Shown one piece after another: positions 15,194 to 39,351 of a stretch of 44,469 nucleotides of DNA (positions are counted from its first letter, which is position 1; every line of letters starts with the position of its first letter). The notes below the pieces were generated by a model, which saw only the letters and a program-made list of their open reading frames with translations, was not told the DNA's origin and did not search any database. The translations under genes and the position numbers were made by a program. Origin of the DNA: a virus; IMG/VR virus record IMGVR_UViG_3300017963_000104, positions 1-44,469 of that record; one strand, given 5' to 3'.

Positions 15194-15852
15194 TCTACGG
15201 CACACTTATTTGCCAAAACGCGATAAGTGAAATAAGGCGTTGCATAGAGTCTGTTAGGCCTGTAGTTGATGAGTATTATGTTATGGACGGTGGGTCAACA
15301 GATGGTACATGGGAAATGCTGAATGATTACAAGGATGTTTATGGCCTTACGCTTTTTCAGAGTAAATACGAAGATCAAGGAGCGCAGAGGAATAAGCTAA
15401 GATCAAAACTTCCTAAGAACATTTGGGTTGTTAATTTAGATCAAGACGAGGAGTTAAACATGGCCGCAAGAAAAGAACTTAGGCAGTTTCTTAATCGAGT
15501 TCAAGTAACGCAGCACGATTTGCCTCTGACTCTTGCAATCAAGAATATTAACTTGGTAAAGGACATGTTTCATTACGATGCTAGTTTAGTGAGCTACTTT
15601 GCCACGAAGATCTTTTATTATGACAAAAACTTACATTTTACACCTGGATATCATATGTCAATTCATTACTTTGACAACGAACAAAATATTAATTCTATTC
15701 CGTGCCCTGAGGATTTTGTTATTAAACATTACGCATGGTTGGATAAAAAGCGTAGAGAAACTGCGGGCAAGGATAATAAACGAGCATATGGAGGAGAAGA
15801 GGGGTTGGAAAGTTCGTGGGATATTAGAGAATTACCAGAGGAGTGGTACTAG
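15172..15852 (+). CDS. glycosyltransferase, family 2-like
   Basis: A 226-residue protein with a GT-A fold start (TLICQNAISEIRRCIESV), the donor-site strand YYVMDGGSTDGTW (residues ~36-48) and VNLDQDEEL (D-x-D metal site, ~89-97). It is shorter than many GT2 enzymes. The second start (15172, after AAAGAGGAAC) is preferred over 15157, which has no ribosome site. It is isolated between terminase and portal genes, 7 kb from the main glycan cassette. The acceptor is unknown; capsid, fibre or host DNA/lipid targets cannot be separated by sequence. Confidence 0.8.
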   Translation: MENRQTLIYGTLICQNAISEIRRCIESVRPVVDEYYVMDGGSTDGTWEMLNDYKDVYGLTLFQSKYEDQGAQRNKLRSKLPKNIWVVNLDQDEELNMAARKELRQFLNRVQVTQHDLPLTLAIKNINLVKDMFHYDASLVSYFATKIFYYDKNLHFTPGYHMSIHYFDNEQNINSIPCPEDFVIKHYAWLDKKRRETAGKDNKRAYGGEEGLESSWDIRELPEEWY

Positions 15853-16160
15853 TGATTAAACAAAGTATTAGGACAAGTCTAGCTTCTATAACCAAAGAGC
15901 AGTGGGAAACACATAACAATAACATGTTTATGCAACATCTCCTAAGAGCCGATCCTGACTTGTGGCTTATTAAAGAATACTTAGAACGTTATCACATAAA
16001 CGCAGCTTTGTTACCTCCGATTCTTGAAGCAATGGACGTAGTAAATAAAACAACAGGCTGGGGTAGAGTTGTCATAGAGATTAGAAACAATGTTGTCGTG
16101 CGCTGTCGAGGAGAAAATGATAGATTACTTGAATTGGAGTTAAAGAGGGAAGGTGAGTAG
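15852..16160 (+). CDS. hypothetical protein
   Basis: A 102-residue protein starting at GTG 15852, which shares a base with the upstream TAG stop. AGAGGAG lies nine bases before it, so this start is preferred over GTG 15843. The N-terminal half is helical with aromatic residues. The C-terminus (WGRVVIEIRNNVVV) is a beta hairpin with alternating charge. No family is recognised. It ends a block before a promoter and RNA switch. Confidence 0.6.
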   Translation: MIKQSIRTSLASITKEQWETHNNNMFMQHLLRADPDLWLIKEYLERYHINAALLPPILEAMDVVNKTTGWGRVVIEIRNNVVVRCRGENDRLLELELKREGE

Positions 16161-16203: not shown

Positions 16204-16258
16204 GTTCGCGAGCAGTGATCCGGGCATTTCCTCGCGAACGTGCCCGGATCTTTGTTGC
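16204..16258 (+). promoter_or_regulatory. attenuator-like element of two interleaved perfect inverted repeats
   Basis: GTTCGCGAG (16204-16212) pairs with CTCGCGAAC (16231-16239), 9 bp. GATCCGGGCA (16217-16226) pairs with TGCCCGGATC (16241-16250), 10 bp. The arms alternate, so both hairpins cannot form fully at once. Only one base separates the last two arms, so a full pseudoknot is strained. The second hairpin is followed by TTTGTTGCTT and would act as a terminator. The first would be its competitor. The next gene starts at 16274. Confidence 0.75.
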
Positions 16259-16273
16259 TTAGAAAGGTTATTT

Positions 16274-16885
16274 ATGTCTAAAAAGACAATAGAAATAGAA
16301 GAACCTAGTGTAGCTAGGTTAGTAGTAAGTGTAATAGGAACAGCTCCGTTCCTTAGCGATAGAATTGATCCTAGATTTTTAGAATCAGAGCACGCTAAAA
16401 GAGAATTATCCCCAGAAGAATTAGATGCTTTGTACGAGAGTAAAAAGTATTATGATGAAAAAATGCGTGCAGGAATTCCCGCCGCCGCCTTCAAGAAGGC
16501 CTTCGAGGAGGCAGCCAAGGGACAGGGTTGGTGGGTGGGGGGTAAGATTAATGGTAAAAGGCTCAAAGGCGCAGTTTCATTGACAGGAGTGGTAATCCCG
16601 CTTGAATCTATTTCCGACGAAAGGAAACTAGAAGAAGTGCGAAGGGAAGATATAGTTAATCAGGGCGGCAGGAAAAGTTCTAAGGTGCTCAGAAGGCGAG
16701 TAGCTTTTTATAACTGGCGTTGTAAGTTACCTTTGGACATCAACGTTAATCTAATGTCCGTTGACGATGTTGTGAAAGTTATTAATATGGCGGGAGTTGC
16801 TGTTGGTGTTGGGAACTGGAGACCGCAGTGTAGTGGTACTTTTGGAACTTTTAGAGTCGAGGAGGTTAAAGATGCAAAAGATTAA
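16274..16885 (+). CDS. conserved phage hypothetical protein with GxGxWRP...GxFGxF C-terminus
   Basis: A 203-residue protein. Beta strands and helices alternate, and a helix region near residue 75 (AAAFKKAFEEAAKG) is followed by glycine-rich WWVGGK. The C-terminal motif GVGNWRPQCSGTFGTFRV resembles a motif I recognise from uncharacterised phage proteins that commonly end in G(I/V)G-x-WRP...G-x-(F/Y)G-x-F. The biochemical role is unknown. It overlaps the next gene by 14 bp, and together they form a two-gene unit behind its own promoter and switch. A run of GC-rich codons near 16480-16545 differs from the flanking AT-rich use. Confidence 0.7.
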   Translation: MSKKTIEIEEPSVARLVVSVIGTAPFLSDRIDPRFLESEHAKRELSPEELDALYESKKYYDEKMRAGIPAAAFKKAFEEAAKGQGWWVGGKINGKRLKGAVSLTGVVIPLESISDERKLEEVRREDIVNQGGRKSSKVLRRRVAFYNWRCKLPLDINVNLMSVDDVVKVINMAGVAVGVGNWRPQCSGTFGTFRVEEVKDAKD

Positions 16886-17354
16886 AGAAATAATATACAA
16901 AGCTAGAGAAGGTGCCCCGTTTGGGGACGAAAAGGCGAAAGAGCTTGCACTTTACATGGAGGAAAACGAACTTGAAAGTCCTGATGAGGTTTTAGACGAC
17001 GCGTTAAAGAATGAGAAATCCCCTTTTAGAGAGTTTATAGAGTGGGATAAGGAAAAGGCGTTTATAAAATACGCGAAGGAAAGTGTTAAACATGTGGTGG
17101 CAAGTATATCCGTCGAGATAAAGTTTGTTGGGGGTGAAACCGTGCGCTTTAAACGTGCCTATAACATTGTTCGTATTGGAGGTGCAAATTTTTATGCCCC
17201 TACTGAGGATGCGCTGACCAGCGAAGAATCCCGTAAGCAGATTTTAAATCGCGCGTATGGTAATTTAAAGGGTTGGCAGGAAACATACGGTAACTATTTG
17301 GAGTTTGCTAAAATAGTATCAGCTATAGACGAGGTCGATCCGTCTGAGTTTTAA
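16872..17354 (+). CDS. conserved phage hypothetical protein, partner of the upstream gene
   Basis: A 160-residue protein. GAGGTTAAAG precedes ATG 16872, so the earlier in-frame start at 16797 is not used. A motif of the type SPFREFIEWDKEKAFIKYAK is followed by short beta strands with Arg and a C-terminal helix (RKQILNRAYGNLKGWQ...YLEFAKIVSAID). That order resembles an uncharacterised phage family (W-x-D-x-x-KA near the start, AID near the end). It ends 6 bp before the pentamer array, which may be its target or its regulatory element. Confidence 0.65.
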   Translation: MQKIKEIIYKAREGAPFGDEKAKELALYMEENELESPDEVLDDALKNEKSPFREFIEWDKEKAFIKYAKESVKHVVASISVEIKFVGGETVRFKRAYNIVRIGGANFYAPTEDALTSEESRKQILNRAYGNLKGWQETYGNYLEFAKIVSAIDEVDPSEF

Positions 17355-17360
17355 ATCTAC

Positions 17361-17430
17361 GACGCAACGCACCGCGCCGCTGCGCAACGCTACGCGCCGC
17401 AGCGCTACGCCTCGCAACGCAACGCCACGC
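17361..17430. repeat. array of 14 NNCGC pentamers
   Basis: Seventy bases read as 14 uninterrupted five-base units, each ending in CGC, with the first two bases variable: GA, AA, AC, GC, TG, AA, TA, GC, AG, TA, CT, AA, AA, CA. A degenerate unit (ACCGA) follows. It is very GC-rich within AT-rich flanks, is not a whole number of codons, and lies between a stop codon and the next promoter. The function is unknown. Confidence 0.9.
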
Positions 17431-17446
17431 ACCGATAAACTTAAAG

Positions 17447-17476
17447 TTGACGAATAGGCATATATTGTGTTAAAAA
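17447..17476 (+). promoter_or_regulatory. possible promoter before the portal gene
   Basis: TTGACG (17447-17452), then TAAAAA at 18 bp (17471-17476) or TTAAAA at 17 bp. The -10 match is poor. Its place between the pentamer array and a terminator-like hairpin matches the promoter-hairpin-gene pattern seen elsewhere in this genome. Confidence 0.35.
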
Positions 17477-17509
17477 TGGGGCAACAAAGTTCGTTACCGG
17501 TAGAACTGG

Positions 17510-17564
17510 GGCGGACATCATAGATTACAAGATTTGTAGTTTGTGGTGTCCGCCTTCTTGTTTT
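17510..17564 (+). terminator. terminator-like hairpin in the portal leader
   Basis: GGCGGACA (17510-17517) pairs perfectly with TGTCCGCC (17547-17554), followed by TTCTTGTTTT. ACAA/TTGT can pair inside the loop. The portal ATG follows 15 bp after the T-rich tail, so this is more likely a conditional terminator of the portal operon than a simple end. Confidence 0.65.
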
Positions 17565-17578
17565 AAAGAAAGGAAATT

Positions 17579-19561
17579 ATGCCAGAAGCTATAGAAGCCA
17601 AAGGTACAAAAAAAGAAAGAGAACAATTCTATATTCTGAACCAACACTTTAAAATGGCACTAGAAGACTTAGAGAATAGATATTCAGGTTGGGATACAAA
17701 ACTAGAATTGTTTTATTCGTACATAGATGAATCTGGTTGGCCGTATTCAGCGGAGATATTCGTGCCACAGACATTCACCGCTTTATTTGAGAAAATGGCA
17801 CGCCTTAATGGAGGCAAGCCAAGAGGAAGGCTTATACCAAGAGAGGGAGGAGATATTATTAGAGCCAAGATTAACAACGAATTGCTAAACTACCAATGGG
17901 ATGACGCGGCAAGAGTTGATAAAGAGCCAATGGTTGCCAAATGGGCAAGAATGGATCTTAACGCGAGAATATATGGTGCGGCTTTTGGGCTTGTTAAGTG
18001 GAGGTATGAAGTGGATTCAGACGGGGAGGTAGTGTTTGACGGGCCTGTATTAAAAGTACTCAACAACAAGGACTGTCTGCCTAATCCAGCATATTCAACA
18101 GTAAAAAACTGGTTTCAATATAGGGATTATATAACACTGTATGAGCTTGATAATGTAAACGATACCTGTGGAGAAAAGCCCCGTTACAAGAATTTAAAGA
18201 TACTAAGAGAGTCAATTATTAACAAGTCTACAAAGGGCGGGGATACTAGGCAGCTAAATTATACGCCTAAAGGAAGGGAGTTGTTGGGACTGTCAGATTA
18301 CTTGGGTATGGACGAGGACCCAGACTTTAGAATCGTTGAAATCGTCACCGAATATAGGGACGATAGAATAATTTCCTTTGCACCTAAGCACGGAGTAATT
18401 ATTCGAGACGAGCCAAATCCTTATGCACACAAGCAAATTCCAATTGTCTGTCTAAAGTACATTCCTGTTGACGACGACATTTACGGTCTTTCAGAGATCG
18501 AACCGATTGAGAAAGTACAAAAGGCAATGAACGCACTAACCAGCCAGTTTATTGACGCAATCAACATGGATTTATACAGGATTATGCAAGTTAATCCTTC
18601 GGCAGTTCAGATGCACACACTCGAGTGGGGACCAGGCAAAAAGTGGCTTATGAATGAGCCGGGCAAGTCGGTTGTTCCTCTTGAACACTCAATGACGGCA
18701 ACAAATCAATTTGTTAATGTATACTCGGTATTAACACAAATGTTTAAAGAGGCAATGGGGGAGCTGTCAGCAGCCATGTCAACACTTAAACCATTTGGTA
18801 AAGAAAAGACTGCAACAGAAGTAGAGGCTTTAACAACCACAAGGTCTGTGAGAGATAACTTTAATCAGATATTCTTGGCAGAGACAATCAAGGAACAAAT
18901 GCTTTATTGGTTGCAAATGAACCAGCAGTTTATATTCTCCGATCCAGAGAAGCAGTATTTAGCACTTAGGGTAGTTGGCAGAGAGGCTATGAAGGATTTT
19001 GAGAGGCTGGGGCTTGACGGAATGACTCCCGATACAAGTGATTTTGAAATGTACAGCGCAGAGCAGGCAATATTGCAAGGAGGGGAAGGAGAGCTTCCAA
19101 TGGTTCCTCAATATCCTGTTACGGTAGAGGGAGAAACAATTCCAAAGTTTAAGTTGGAGGAAACAGGGGAAATGGGCACGCTGTACGTTGTAGCAGACGA
19201 TTTGTCAGGAAGCTATGATTACATTGCAGACGTAGAGCCTATGCAAGCGGATTCAACAGAAAAGGAGATTCAGGCAGCAAGGGACGCTATAGGAATGTTA
19301 GCTAATCCTACCATTCTACAGCTATTGCAAATGGAAGGGAGAAGACCTAAGGTATCTGAGATGATTATAGATTTATTTGAGAAGACAGGCATTAAAGGTG
19401 CGGAGAAATACTTTGATGTTATGGAATCTCAGGAGGTAATGTATGGCCAACAAGGGCAGGCAGGAACTAACCAAGGAGGAGCAGGACTTGGTGCACAAGG
19501 GGGAGGAGTTGTACCTCCTCAAGCAGCACCCGGGATGGAAGGTTTTGGAGGAATGGCTTAA
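17579..19561 (+). CDS. portal protein
   Basis: A 660-residue protein. A helical N-terminus with an aromatic stretch (YSGWDTKLELFYSYID) leads into a core with repeated beta strands, a VYGAAF-like segment (IYGAAFGLVKWRYEV), NPAYSTVKNW, and a long central helix region (GELSAAMSTL...KTATEVEA) typical of portal stem and wing helices in short-tailed phages. The C-terminus is Gly/Gln/Pro-rich and flexible. It sits between terminase and scaffold/capsid genes, the standard place. AAAGAAAGG lies before the ATG. The last 119 bp overlap the next gene in another frame. Confidence 0.85.
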   Translation: MPEAIEAKGTKKEREQFYILNQHFKMALEDLENRYSGWDTKLELFYSYIDESGWPYSAEIFVPQTFTALFEKMARLNGGKPRGRLIPREGGDIIRAKINNELLNYQWDDAARVDKEPMVAKWARMDLNARIYGAAFGLVKWRYEVDSDGEVVFDGPVLKVLNNKDCLPNPAYSTVKNWFQYRDYITLYELDNVNDTCGEKPRYKNLKILRESIINKSTKGGDTRQLNYTPKGRELLGLSDYLGMDEDPDFRIVEIVTEYRDDRIISFAPKHGVIIRDEPNPYAHKQIPIVCLKYIPVDDDIYGLSEIEPIEKVQKAMNALTSQFIDAINMDLYRIMQVNPSAVQMHTLEWGPGKKWLMNEPGKSVVPLEHSMTATNQFVNVYSVLTQMFKEAMGELSAAMSTLKPFGKEKTATEVEALTTTRSVRDNFNQIFLAETIKEQMLYWLQMNQQFIFSDPEKQYLALRVVGREAMKDFERLGLDGMTPDTSDFEMYSAEQAILQGGEGELPMVPQYPVTVEGETIPKFKLEETGEMGTLYVVADDLSGSYDYIADVEPMQADSTEKEIQAARDAIGMLANPTILQLLQMEGRRPKVSEMIIDLFEKTGIKGAEKYFDVMESQEVMYGQQGQAGTNQGGAGLGAQGGGVVPPQAAPGMEGFGGMA

Positions 19562-32282: not shown

Positions 32283-35200
32283 ATGGCTATATGGGTAGAA
32301 GAAGGTACAGCACAAGAAGGCGATAGTTTTAGTTTGGAAAATGGCAATCGTATTGTTGTTAGAACTTCTAGCGGGATTCCTTACGTGGTGGCATGGAACG
32401 TTACCTCTACCGCACAGATTACTGTGTTTAAGGGAAACGGTACCTCTCCTACAGCTTTTAGTATTGAGGATAATGGCCCTAGCGGTTCTACTGTTGGTTC
32501 TTGTTCTGCCGCCATTGATTCAAGCGATGTAATCCATATTGTTTATGCAGAGTACACCTCTAAATCATCAGATTTAACTTATGTAACCTACGACACGGGA
32601 ACAGACTCTTTTAGCGGTACTACAGATATAGAAGGAGACTTAGGGGAGGATGATGGGGGTGTTTCTAACATTTATACCGCAATAGCAATAGACTCGAATG
32701 ATGCTCCCCACGTTGCGGTTACTTCTCTGTTTAAGGTTGGGGGAACTACTACACGTACGGTTCAATATTCAAATTATACAGACGGAAGTAATTGGAACGA
32801 ATTAATAGAGGTTGAAGGCGCTACTGCTGGTGTGAATTGTTATGTAACTGATATTTTAATTGATGCTACTGATAGGCCTGTTGTTCTTTATAGAAACTCT
32901 ACAGATAAAAATTTGGCTGCTGCTAGAGGAAATGCCAATGACGCAGAGTCGTTTTCATTAGTTGATTTGGAAACAACAACCAATTCCACGACTGGAGTAA
33001 AAGTTAAAGGGGCTTTGGATTCGGATGGTAATTTGTGGGTTGGTTGGGGGAATGTAGATAATGATGTTTCCTCTGATGCAGTAAATATAATTAAACATAC
33101 TCTTGGAAGTGCTTGGTCTAGTTGGGGAAGTATATTGGGGGATGGACAGTCTACAAATTCAATCGAATTAAGCGAGCCATATACCAGCATATATGTAGAA
33201 GGGTCTGATGTATATGTTTTTTATGAGAGCGGTTCAGATGATATTGAATATTCTGTATATAATGGTTCTAGTTGGGATGCTGGTAATTCTATTGAGACAG
33301 GTACTTATGATATAGTTGTAGCCAAATACGGGGCATGGGTAGATAACGATAGTGGCGGTGCTTTAGTTACAGGCGGCGGAGACAGATATCATCATGATAA
33401 TTATAATAGTGATGCTGCTTTATATAGTGGTGCGAATACAAGGGCAGCTCAAACCTTTACGGGAGTGTCTGGGGATTTGACAGGTGCGGATTTCTGGATG
33501 AATAAATCTGGTACTCCTTCTGGAAATGTTACCGCTACTTTGTACGCTACATCAGGCGGCGCACCAACAGGTTCGGCTCTAGCTACTTCAGAAGCAGTAT
33601 CTGCTACAGATATTGATTACACCGCAACAGGACAGACATTTGTTTTTACCACAGGATACACTCTTAGTTCGGGAACAACCTACGCCATAGCTGTTGAGTA
33701 TTCTGGCGGGGATTCTTCTAACTACATACAGGCAGGTTATGACAGTACCCCTCAACACTCTGGTACAGGATATGTTTATAGTGGTAGTTGGTCAACATTA
33801 AATGGTGGAGACGGGGATTTAATCTTTGGTGTTACAGCGTATAGTAGAGATGCCGCAAGTGAGTTGGATTACGCCTTTAGAGATGTAACTGGCGGTGCTG
33901 TTGAGATTTACTGGAATACTTTAAGTATAGGAGTAACTGAATCAGCGTCTATTTCTCCCTCGGCATCCGAGTCAGCTTCTATAAGTCCATCAGCATCTGA
34001 AAGCGCTTCGATATCACCTTCCGCTAGTGAGTCTGCGTCCGTCTCGCCCTCTGCTTCTGAGTCAGCTTCTATCTCTCCATCAGCTAGTGAGAGCGCAAGT
34101 ATTTCTCCTAGTTCATCTATAAGCCCTTCTGCAAGTGAAAGCGCTTCGGTATCACCATCTGCATCAGAGTCAGCTTCCATATCTCCCTCAGCATCGGAGT
34201 CAGCTTCGATCTCTCCTTCGGCATCTGAAAGTGCATCAATATCTCCTAGTGCTAGTGAGTCTGCAAGTATTTCACCTAGTGCTAGTATCTCACCAAGTGC
34301 GTCTGAATCCGCTAGTATTAGTCCGTCTGCTTCAGAATCTGCTTCTATTAGCCCAAGTGCAAGTGAATCGGCTTCTATATCGCCTTCAGCATCTGAATCC
34401 GCCAGTATTTCCCCTTCAGCTTCAATAAGTCCTTCAGCAAGTGAAAGTGCTAGTATATCTCCTTCAGCCTCAGAGTCAGCTAGTATTAGTCCTTCGGCTA
34501 GTATATCTCCCTCTGCGTCTGAAAGTGCTAGTATCTCACCTTCAGCGAGTATAAGTCCATCTGCTTCAGAGAGTGCGTCTATTTCCCCTTCTGCATCTAT
34601 TAGTCCAAGTGCTTCAGAAAGTGCCTCTATATCTCCGTCTGCGAGTGAAAGTGCTTCGGTTAGTCCAAGTGCTAGCATCTCACCTTCCGCATCGGAGTCA
34701 GCATCAATTAGTCCGTCTGCTTCTGTGTCTCCGTCAGCTAGCGAGTCGGCTTCGATAAGCCCATCCGCCTCTATATCACCTAGCGAATCTGAATCTGCTT
34801 CTATCAGTCCTTCTGCTAGTATTTCTCCATCTGCCAGCGAATCGGCTTCGATTTCTCCTAGTGCAAGTGAAAGTGCGTCAGTATCGCCTAGTGCATCTAT
34901 ATCACCTTCGGCATCCGAATCCGCTTCTATAAGTCCGTCGGCCTCTGAGAGTGCATCTATATCGCCTTCTGCATCGATATCGCCGTCTGCTAGTGAGAGT
35001 GCGAGTATTTCACCTTCTTCGTCGGCATCTCCATCAGCTCAGGAGAGTGCTTCTATTTCGCCAAGTGCTTCTGAGTCGGCTTCGATCTCTCCATCAGCTT
35101 CGATAAGCCCTAGCGCAAGCGAATCGGTTAGTGTAAGTCCTAGTGCTTCGGTTAGCCCTAGCCCGTCTCCCGGCACACCTTTTGAATGGACTGATTGTTT

Positions 35201-36695
35201 TCAAGCAGATGCGATTCCTGAAAACTCGTCCCCTGCTTGGACAGCTACTGGAACACCCGATACAGAAGAGGTAAGTGGTGGGATTTTCCATATGGCTGAC
35301 TCAGCTGATGGAATCTACTACTACTTAGAGGACACGAATATTGATGCTAGTTTGGGAGTTACGCTAGAAACAAGATTAAAGGTTGTAGATGCAAACGATG
35401 ATTATTATACAGTCTGCGGTGTTGAGGTTGGTTCGGGTTCTTCTTGGATATATATGGTCTTTTCCGAGTCTTCGGCTGGTTTGGATGACTATAACGGAAA
35501 TACCGATTCCTACAACATGGATACCACCGACGATTTCCATCAATACAGGCTTACTGTATTAAATGGGACGGCAATACTCTACGTTGATGGTGTACAGCGT
35601 GCAACCATTAGCTATTCAGGAACGGATGCTGGAGGAAAGTATATAGAGTTTGGTTCGTTTGCTAGCGCTACTTATGAACACTATTGGGATTATGTTTGTT
35701 ACTCGGTAGATGGGGCATATCCAGCGGGGCCAAGTGGTTCGCCATCAGCCAGCATTTCTCCCTCAGCCAGTGAGAGTGCATCAATCTCACCATCAATGAG
35801 CGAGAGCGCATCGGTATCTCCATCGGCAAGTGTGTCCCCCTCAGCTTCAGAAAGTGCTTCTGTATCTCCATCAGCTAGTGAAAGCGCATCAATCAGCCCA
35901 TCAGCTAGTGTTTCCCCATCTGCTAGTGAAAGTGCTAGTATAAGCCCTTCAGCATCAGAGTCAGCCTCGATATCTCCCAGCGCATCTATCAGTCCATCTG
36001 CTTCTGAGTCTGCTAGTATTAGTCCTTCAGAAAGCGAGTCTGCGTCGGTATCTCCTAGCGCTAGTATCTCTCCCTCGGCCTCTGAGAGTGCCTCCATCTC
36101 TCCATCAGCGAGTGTATCGCCGTCTGCCTCGGAGAGTGCGTCGGTCAGTCCGAGCGCTTCGATTTCGCCATCGGAAAGCGAATCGGCGTCGTTGTCTCCT
36201 AGTGCCAGTATTTCTCCGTCAGCTTCTGAGAGTGCTAGTGTTTCGCCTTCGGCTTCGGTAAGTCCCTCAGCTTCACCAAGTGCAGGATATGAGATGTATA
36301 CAATGGGAGATTATGCCGCCTTACCTGCAGATGATTCAGCATTAGAAACGAATTTTGAAGCTCAGGATTATTTGGATGTTGACGTAGAGGATAGTACTTA
36401 TGTAGACCAAACAGCAGCAACAGATGACTACGCAATATTTCAATTTAAAGACTTTATAGGGGATGCGGGATCAATAACGCTTGAGTGGATAGGAAAATCT
36501 TCGTCAGCACCTTCTTCGGAAACAGTTTATCTGCAAATATATAACTATGATACACCGGGTTGGGAAAATGTTGATTCAGAGAGCGATGCAGGAGCAGATG
36601 AGGATTTTACACTTACGGGACAAATAGCCGATACTACAAACTATGTAGACGGCAGTAATGTAGTTACTTGTAGGGTTTATCAATTAGCGCCATGA
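32283..36695 (+). CDS. giant Ser-rich repeat fibre/adhesin-like protein
   Basis: A 1470-residue protein. Residues ~1-340 hold propeller-like repeats ([10 protein letters not shown]-type strands, [14 protein letters not shown]). Residues ~360-545 form a beta-rich binding-type domain ([12 protein letters not shown]..., ATLYAT). Residues ~552-963 are a Ser-rich repeat of the [12 protein letters not shown] type. Residues ~964-1150 form a LamG/jelly-roll-like domain ([32 protein letters not shown]). Residues ~1152-1334 are a second Ser-rich repeat, followed by a final beta domain. The layout resembles a surface fibre with glycan-bearing stalks between binding heads. No signal peptide is seen, as expected for a virion protein. 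Confidence 0.7.
33937..35172 (+). repeat. Ser-rich peptide repeat, first stalk
   Basis: About 400 residues of near-perfect repeats of SASESAS(I/V)SPSAS. All six serine codons (TCT, TCC, TCA, TCG, AGT, AGC) are mixed, so the DNA is not repetitive although the peptide is. Expansion by recent copying would show the opposite. Confidence 0.9.
35739..36285 (+). repeat. Ser-rich peptide repeat, second stalk
   Basis: About 180 residues of the same unit as in the first stalk, with codons equally scrambled. It follows the jelly-roll-like domain and precedes the C-terminal beta domain. Confidence 0.88.
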
Positions 36696-39244
36696 ATTTA
36701 GAATATTTTAACCAAACACAACACTATAAGGGAGTACCAAAAGACGATCCTAAAGACAGGATAGAAGTAGAAATTGGTGATTCAAAGCAAGCTAAATTCA
36801 TTCCACAAATGAAACTAATGAGGTGGGACAACGAGGTTAATCTGTCTGTCAGAGCAGAGGAGATGCAACTGCCCAGTGTTGGTAGGTACGCTAATAAAGT
36901 AAGGTATAGGGGAAGTAAAAAAGGATATGAGTTTTACCATGTAGACCCTAACGATGAGTATAAGGAAGGTGCTTTTAAATTTGAATACATATTAGAAGAA
37001 AAACCTGCTACTAACAAACTGACATTTTCAATACAGACTAAAGGGCTTGACTTTTTCTACCAGCCCGAACTTACCCAAGAAGAAATAGATAGGGGCGATA
37101 TTAGACCAGACAATGTTGTTGGTTCTTATGCTGTTTATCATAAAACTAAGGGAGGAATAAATCCTGCTGATGGTATAGATTATAAGGTTGGTAAGTTTTG
37201 CCATATTTACAGACCTAAGATTATAGATGCTAATGATAATTGGGTATGGGGAGATTTACACATTGATACGGACACGGGGCTTTATGAGGTAACGATACCA
37301 CAAGACTTTTTAGATAATGCGGTTTATCCGATAAGAAGTAATGATACGTTTGGGTATACAACATTAGGAAGTTCTACCTCTGGATATATAGCAGGGAATT
37401 TGGGCGGTTCGGCATATCAACAAATGTATGGAATTGCGCACAGTCTCGGAGAAAGTGGAACTTTAGACAAAATAACTGTTGGCATAAAAACAGATTTTAG
37501 TACAACCGCAGATGTTTATGCTGCAATTTACAGAGAAGATAGTGGCGGGAGTAATGTTCATGGAAAGGTAGTAGGAATTGAAAATTTAGAAGTTTCCCTG
37601 AGTACTACGCAGGCGTTTATAGACTTTACTGCTTCATCAGAAGAACTTTCGGCAGATGATTATATTTTGGCAGCAGTAGGTAACGGTGCGGATATGACAG
37701 AGAGCAATGGTTATATGTATGTAGTTTATGATGGAACTGGAACTTCTAGGCATAGATATGCTGAGAGTTTTAATGGAGCATCTGGGTATTCAACTGCAAA
37801 GGCGGAAAACACATGGGCATGTACAGACACTGCAGACGACAAAAATTATTCCATCTATGCCACCTATACACCTTCTGGCCCTGTTGAGTCGGCGTCGGTT
37901 TCTCCATCAGCTTCCACATCACCGTCAGCCTCAGAGTCAGCATCTATCTCTCCGTCTGCTTCTATTAGCCCAAGTGCCAGCGAGTCTGCGAGCATATCCC
38001 CAAGTGCAAGCGAAAGTGCATCAGTCAGTCCGTCTGCGAGTATTTCGCCATCAGCCTCTGAATCGGCGTCTGTTAGTCCTAGTGCAAGCATCAGCCCTTC
38101 CTTGTCGGAAAGTGCTAGTATATCCCCTTCGGCTAGTGTAAGCCCCTCGTTGTCTGAAAGTGCAAGCATATCCCCAAGTACTTCGGTTAGTCCCAGTGCT
38201 TCGGAGTCAGCATCGCTCAGCCCCTCTGCTTCAGAATCTGCGAGCATCTCACCTAGTGCTAGTATTTCGCCGTCATCTAGTGCGTCTCCTTCAGGAGGGA
38301 TAACAACACTATCGACAGATTATTGGAAGGTAACATTTGAAATATCTAGCGAATCTCCATCAATTAGTCCTTCGGCCTCTGTAAGCCCCTCAGCGTCGAT
38401 AAGTCCTTCAAAGTCGGAGTCAGCGTCTGTCAGTCCATCGGCGAGCATAAGTCCCTCGGCATCGGAATCGGCGTCGTTAAGCCCAAGTGCTTCCGAAAGC
38501 GCATCAGTTTCTCCCAGCGCCTCTATCAGCCCTTCTGGTTCTGAATCTGCTTCCTTGTCTCCGTCTGCTAGCATTAGTCCTAGTGCATCAGAATCTGCCT
38601 CAATATCACCAAGTGCGTCAGTAAGTCCAAGTGCTTCAGAGAGCGCATCTGTATCGCCGAGTGCCAGCGAGAGTGCGTCTTTGTCTCCATCCGCCTCTGA
38701 GTCTGCCAGTATTTCACCCAGTGCGTCAAAAAGTCCTAGCGCAAGTGAATCTGCCTCCGTATCGCCGTCGGCAAGTGAATCTGCATCAGTAAGCCCCAGT
38801 GCAAGCGAATCGGCCAGTGTAAGCCCTTCAGCTAGTATTTCACCTAGTGCGAGCGAATCTGCGAGCCTTTCACCGTCAGCTTCGGAGTCTGCCTCAGTTA
38901 GCCCGTCGGCAAGTGAAAGTGTTTCCATAAGCCCCTCGGCTTCAGAATCAGCATCTGTGTCACCATCGGCTTCGGTGTCTCCGAGCGCATCAGAATCAGC
39001 GTCTGTTAGCCCCAGCGCATCGGTATCGCCAAGCGCATCTATAAGCCCATCAGCTTCAGCAAGCGCAAGCAGGAGTCCAAGCGCTAGTATTAGCCCCAGT
39101 GCTTCGGTTAGTCCCAGTGCTTCGATATCTCCATCGGCATCGGCAAGCCCGTCCCCACCTCCAGGGTATGAAGAAATATTCATTGTTAATAGGGGTAGGT
39201 TCGCCGCATGGATAGACACTGGAGAATATCTTGAGTTGAGTTGA
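36692..39244 (+). CDS. second Ser-rich repeat virion protein
   Basis: An 850-residue protein. Residues ~1-200 form a mixed alpha/beta head ([45 protein letters not shown]), which looks like a structural fold. A beta domain up to about residue 395 resembles the head domain of the preceding giant protein ([22 protein letters not shown]). Ser-rich stalks span ~399-535 and ~552-823, separated by a short segment. A 25-residue C-terminal end ([16 protein letters not shown]) closes the chain. Its start overlaps the previous stop by 4 bp. The function is inferred as a fibre or surface protein. Its TGA stop forms part of a promoter box. Confidence 0.7.
37886..38297 (+). repeat. Ser-rich peptide repeat, first stalk of the second protein
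   Basis: About 135 residues, [13 protein letters not shown] type, with scrambled synonymous codons. Changes such as Leu-Ser-Glu and Thr appear in a few units. Confidence 0.88.
38349..39162 (+). repeat. Ser-rich peptide repeat, second stalk of the second protein
   Basis: About 270 residues of the same unit. Codons are again scrambled. A few units carry Lys, Gly or Arg. The stretch ends in Pro-Pro-Pro-Gly. Confidence 0.88.
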
Positions 39245-39269
39245 CATTTTCGATAGTATTTTGTAACAT
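39241..39269 (+). promoter_or_regulatory. promoter after the Ser-rich genes
   Basis: TTGACA (39241-39246), 17 bp spacer, TAACAT (39264-39269). The preceding gene's TGA stop lies inside TTGACA. Transcription would start near 39276 and meet a strong terminator-like hairpin before the next gene. Confidence 0.75.
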
Positions 39270-39304
39270 TTGACAAAAGACGGCAAAAGAAGAAAAACTT
39301 CGAG

Positions 39305-39351
39305 CCCGATATTTGAATGCAACAACCTTGCAAGCAAGTATCGGGTTTTTT
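39305..39351 (+). terminator. terminator-like hairpin in a leader
   Basis: CCCGATATTTG (39305-39315) pairs with CAAGTATCGGG (39335-39345) through 11 bp with one G-U, with TGCAA/TTGCA pairing inside the loop. TTTTTT follows. The next ATG (39375) comes after AAAGAAAGG. Promoter plus hairpin would release a short RNA of about 75 nt unless read through. Confidence 0.8.

Follow-up and report, generated by a model that had tools for sequence, protein, structure and literature searches.

An NNCGC pentamer array in an uncultivated phage is very probably the guide tract of a VIPR cassette with a CGC scaffold

This locus raises the question of what use a phage could have for a run of five-base units in which three bases are constant and two vary. 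The window (the whole stretch of DNA that was analysed) is a virus contig of 44,469 bases with SU10-like portal and terminase genes, and its positions 17361-17430 read exactly (NNCGC)x14, uninterrupted, so that the fourteen units of the original prediction are real. The dinucleotides, each preceding a CGC, are in order GA, AA, AC, GC, TG, AA, TA, GC, AG, TA, CT, AA, AA and CA. As had also been claimed, the array begins 6 bp past a two-gene module, the stop of the second gene lying at 17354. The array recurs without change in L130, another record of this phage, and no second array was found in the 44,469-base window. The features of the locus are the following.

15843-16160, plus strand: 105-aa ORF, conserved, bordering the insertion site on the left and adjoining the portal gene in five of six relatives
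16204-16251, plus strand: vipr leader, two interleaved perfect stems of 9 and 10 bp, a potential H-type pseudoknot
16274-16885, plus strand: vipr, RAMP-fold (Cas7/Csm3-like) protein of 203 aa, PHROG 4652, predicted RNA-guide binder
16872-17354, plus strand: vap, accessory gene of 160 aa, PHROG 15946, overlapping the end of vipr
17361-17430, plus strand: repeat tract of the putative guide (vrRNA), NN as targeting code and CGC as constant scaffold
17431-17509, plus strand: putative 3' tail of the guide transcript, by its position between the repeat tract and the terminator
17510-17564, plus strand: intrinsic terminator, a 20-bp stem (17510-17554) followed by the T-rich TTCTTGTTTT
17579-19561, plus strand: portal gene (PF23899, PHROG 1216), neighbour of the insertion site and outside the VIPR system

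We are confident that the fourteen units form the targeting part of a guide RNA (vrRNA) and that this RNA belongs to a phage-borne VIPR cassette consisting of vipr, vap and one array. VIPR (Viral Interference Programmable Repeat) was described in 2026 as an RNA-guided, CRISPR-like weapon of phages (bioRxiv 2026.04.26.720920, PMC13142463). According to that preprint, the system comprises a phage RAMP protein, Vipr, and guide RNAs of alternating GGY and NN, with one DNA base skipped; the vrRNA has 9-16 tandem pentamers with a constant triplet and a hypervariable NN, and the accessory genes are vap1-6 (PMC13142463).

The array itself is not what chance would produce. Five CGC triplets at period 5, with up to two mismatches allowed, gave twelve overlapping matches in the window and none in 100 dinucleotide shuffles, and when the GC-rich bases of the array itself were shuffled 20,000 times, no run exceeded 4 units; the shuffling check proposed at the outset thus yields no run of this length. 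Low-entropy NNCGC repeats without Vipr do occur in viral contigs, and one could therefore read the array as a chance or mutational pentanucleotide repeat, a slippage microsatellite devoid of function. This is most improbable in view of the nine kinds of dinucleotide among the 14 units (entropy 2.95 bits), of the shuffles and of the association with vipr, a Vipr homologue being found beside most other diversified arrays as well. A CRISPR array was also considered and set aside, the period being 5 rather than that of 20-50 bp repeats with unique spacers and no cas genes adjoining; a coding-repeat reading was likewise rejected. Rfam gave no match, and no tRNA was found.

By sequence and by modelled fold, the gene at 16274 is a homologue of Vipr. 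Its protein matches PHROG 4652 (E=3.8e-20) and on its own scores the Vipr of Escherichia phage SUSP1 at 33.9 bits, the family profile raising this to 101.7 bits; the same profile matches PDB 36pp, the solved SUSP1 Vipr protein, with E=1.7e-25. The AlphaFold (AF2) model has a mean pLDDT of 88.7, and Foldseek matched that model to Csm3, to Cas7 and to RAMPs of type VII (E 2e-6, probability 1.00). A PADLOC search with the Vipr family returned nothing. Among named phages, the window Vipr and Vap have their closest relatives in Gordonia phages UmaThurman, ODay and Ecliptus and Mycobacterium phage Quico, the identity to UmaThurman gp39 being 33% for Vipr, and an alignment of distant window-type Viprs, made for a viral search, contained no conserved stretch. 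Within the otherwise AT-rich vipr gene there is a GC-rich stretch with an overlapping imperfect palindrome (16477-16522), which encodes AAAFKKAFEEAAKG. The second gene, at 16872, belongs to PHROG 15946 (E=7.5e-11), a family that recurs next to vipr in nine further loci; vap homologues adjoin vipr in L030, L060, L061, L080 and L091 and in Gordonia and Mycobacterium phages. The Vap fold had no match in the PDB, and there is no detectable relation between the window vap and the vap1 of SUSP1.

The link between the array and gene 16274, which the original prediction had asked to see examined in related phages, proved to be strong. A scan of IMG/VR for seven NNCGC units returned 119 pieces, many of whose arrays are long, diversified, intergenic and repeated within one locus, and an iterated profile begun from the 16274 protein found homologues in most of these pieces. 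In particular, among the IMG/VR loci whose diversified runs reach 9 units or more, 42 of 50 contain a Vipr homologue, the other eight arrays lying less than 1 kb from the end of a piece, as against 11 of 36 simple repeats (entropy below 2 bits). The median distance from the gene to its nearest array is 71 bases. Since the Vipr profile was partly trained on array loci, loci were also fetched by the protein alone: among nine genome contigs with main-clade relatives, five have CGC arrays beside vipr (L143, L144, L146, L148 and L150), one GGY (L145), one CTC (L149) and one AGC (L151). Two of these contigs add further scaffold triplets, the Vipr homologue of L149, a Flavobacteriaceae MAG, being accompanied by CTC/NN arrays and that of L151, bacterium ADurb.Bin236, by AGC/NN arrays.

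The surroundings of the array indicate to which transcription unit it belongs. It had been placed in the leader region of the portal gene, ahead of a portal promoter, but no sigma-70 promoter-like site lies between array and portal, and what is found there is a strong intrinsic terminator (fold z-score of the region -5.35), upstream of which the array lies. Hence the array forms the 3' part of one transcription unit with vipr and vap and is not a portal leader. Since L131, a relative without vipr, has a similar hairpin ahead of its portal gene, the terminator probably belongs to the phage backbone. At the other end of the unit, 16204-16251 is the one site where perfect stems of 7 bp or more interleave inside 55 nt, no other such site occurring in the window; its fold z-score is -3.3, pseudoknots not being counted. 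This potential leader pseudoknot possibly controls expression of the cassette, or operon. A pseudoknot-like leader was not seen upstream of other vipr genes.

Array, vipr and vap are together missing from all six portal relatives, and in five of them the 105-aa ORF stands directly beside the portal gene. Because these five have the empty site, the slot between ORF and portal is, as judged by sequence comparison, a site that takes up cargo, and the VIPR cassette was inserted into it. In the sixth relative (L131, 1336-3432) the slot holds, by sequence reading, an HNH-like ORF and a probable DNA methyltransferase, contents that would fit a hotspot for anti-competitor or defence cargo. The original prediction had listed a packaging, replication or recombination site among its candidates, and the position of the array between the terminase and portal genes would suit such a backbone site. 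Backbone relatives that do without array, vipr and vap make this very improbable indeed. It had further been said that absence of the array from homologous phages would count against the element. Literally, the array is absent from the portal relatives, but they lack it because the whole cassette is a mobile insertion, and pentamer arrays accompany almost every homologue of gene 16274 in other places. Farther along the window, at 33908-39337, are two very long ORFs, of 1470 and 850 aa, which have raised GC and degenerate repeats of 18, 30, 48 and 78 bases and probably encode virion or adhesion proteins.

If the arrays are guides, the dinucleotides should spell targets, and the published code, in which the NN pairs match the target with one base skipped per unit (NNxNN), was applied to a CGC relative. 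The element of Paracoccus litorisediminis (L144) has four CGC arrays round its vipr, of which arrays 1, 3 and 4 were tested against 121 Paracoccus genomes, array 2 being too short. With a one-base skip, array 1 matches in 61 of the 121 genomes with at most 3 mismatches among 24 code bases, two of them at 24/24; the reversed control gave 0, and skips of two bases or none gave 0/121 each. Array 4 matches in 23 of 121 genomes (reversed control 0), and in several of them its site lies 210 bp from that of array 1, in the same gene. Both arrays thus match a serine recombinase gene (PF00239), in which the skipped base coincides with wobble positions. For array 3, ten consecutive units (20 code bases) are matched in two genomes, with a reversed control of 1, and the target is a prophage terminase gene (PF05876). 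Since the target matches are homologues of each other, they represent few independent events; a full 24-base match is expected by chance about 3e-8 times per genome, as estimated from genome size. The code is confirmed in this one locus, and for two other CGC loci, the Rhizorhabdus-family and the Nitrospiraceae elements, no target was found in their host groups. Because the arrays of L144 match targets with the one-base skip and the controls gave almost nothing, NNCGC arrays are very probably guide RNAs with a one-base-skip code. The early description, in which the code looked both constrained and diversified and a protein-binding array or an RNA element was thought possible, was right in kind, although it assigned no function. 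The matches constitute independent computational evidence that CGC-scaffold arrays follow the published code and are directed at core genes of prophages, here serine recombinases and a terminase.

The same matches bear on the proposal that the array is an operator, a double-stranded DNA or mRNA site at which Vipr or Vap would bind a CGC-phased repeat and control its own operon or the portal gene, with no guide involved. A constant CGC at a 5-bp phase beside a predicted nucleic-acid-binding protein, just before a terminator and the portal gene, is what such a site might look like. An operator, however, has no need of hypervariable dinucleotides, let alone of ones that in L144, once every third target base is skipped, spell genes for serine recombinases and a terminase, and some Vipr loci contain up to 15 different arrays; we regard this explanation as quite unlikely.

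A guide tract also has a strand. In 61 array loci, and in all vipr loci of the CGC type, the CGC triplet is read on the same strand as vipr, and the GGY arrays of SUSP1 are on the vipr strand too. One could instead suppose that the guide is the opposite strand (GCGNN), transcribed leftward, given that the target pattern is the same for both strands and that the minus-strand RNA folds more stably (z -2.6). Against this stand the constant orientation to vipr across the CGC loci, the strand of the SUSP1 arrays, whose vrRNAs are known, and the fact that CGC shares with GGY a G and a pyrimidine at positions 2 and 3, which GCG does not. A leftward guide is accordingly unlikely.

Where a Vipr locus has an array, the constant triplet that fits best is on the vipr strand; in the present set, which was selected for CGC, it is mostly CGC and otherwise GGY, AGC, GCG or CTC; a '-GCG' entry is the same array as a '+CGC' one in another register. 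These five triplets replace one another across homologous loci. When 67 Viprs are placed on a tree, like triplets cluster, yet the triplet switches several times, at least three changes of CGC being forced by well-supported branches. The window Vipr is nearest to a vap-bearing group (PHROG 15946) with GGY, AGC and GCG, of which GGY is the most used, and does not fall in the large CGC clade; its branch is long, however, and its placement uncertain. We give an even chance to the proposal that the constant triplet is evolvable (GGY/CGC/AGC/GCG/CTC, with several switches) and that the window Vipr gained CGC independently of the large CGC clade; if true, protein-scaffold orthogonality would be readable from natural pairs. 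In the available parts of the preprint the constant triplet is given as GGY 'or a related consensus', and CGC was not found there as a constant triplet (PMC13142463). Another vap-bearing VIPR locus (L061, 5374-6000) has at least six GCG/NN arrays; the spacer between them is nearly constant, resembles CAGTGRTGGGGAGCG and is a candidate for a tail or processing element.

By analogy with the preprint, the array would be transcribed and processed, its RNA bound, and target DNA bound and silenced by the window system. The operon transcript would run on the plus strand through the array to the terminator at 17554; Vipr, being Cas7-like, would assemble on the array RNA, holding the CGC triplets and presenting the NN pair of each unit. 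These pairs would read double-stranded DNA as NNxNNxNN, one target base being skipped per unit, and the guide would bind its site in a rival phage or mobile element, where it would silence the gene. Read with the one-base skip, the window guide would recognise GANAANACNGCNTGNAANTANGCNAGNTANCTNAANAANCA. No convincing target for it was found in IMG/VR or in the phage itself. In IMG/VR, units 1-9 with a one-base skip found one contig, which fails from unit 10, and units 6-14 found none; three shorter seeds returned 51, 2 and 61 pieces, in which extension was at chance level or in unrelated or spurious frames. Within the window, no self-targeting stood above background at any skip.

How, then, does the locus compare with known systems? 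The window has 14 pentamers with a constant triplet and hypervariable dinucleotides, inside the published range for vrRNA, a Vipr-clade RAMP protein and a vap beside vipr. The type II VIPR systems (Escherichia phage SUSP1, P. fulva prophage) resemble it in a homologous Vipr, a two-gene vipr and vap cassette and an intergenic pentamer array on the vipr strand, and their one-base-skip code is shared by the CGC relative L144. They differ in having the GGY triplet and four arrays, whereas the window has CGC and one. The published vrRNAs have a 3' tail (PMC13142463). The window array is followed by a structured stretch with the terminator, for which there is no homologous tail for comparison; no conserved tail is definable after its repeats, nor was a pseudoknotted one found, the pseudoknot-like element standing instead as a leader before vipr. 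The Gordonia phages UmaThurman, ODay and Ecliptus and Mycobacterium phage Quico have the same two gene families (vipr and the PHROG 15946 vap), but their arrays are GGY/NN where that of the window is CGC/NN, and the nearest vap-bearing relatives use GGY, AGC or GCG rather than CGC. With the RAMPs of class 1 CRISPR-Cas (Csm3/Cas7), the modelled window Vipr has the RAMP fold in common, from which a guide-binding role may be proposed; unlike those systems, the window is without cas genes, CRISPR repeats and spacers, and its guide would consist of discontinuous dinucleotides. The locus is thus very probably VIPR, a very young addition to the known systems, with a non-GGY scaffold. Through it, VIPR now reaches an uncultivated phage whose scaffold is CGC, and with the pairs of Vipr and scaffold triplet in the present set, what in the protein selects the triplet becomes directly testable.
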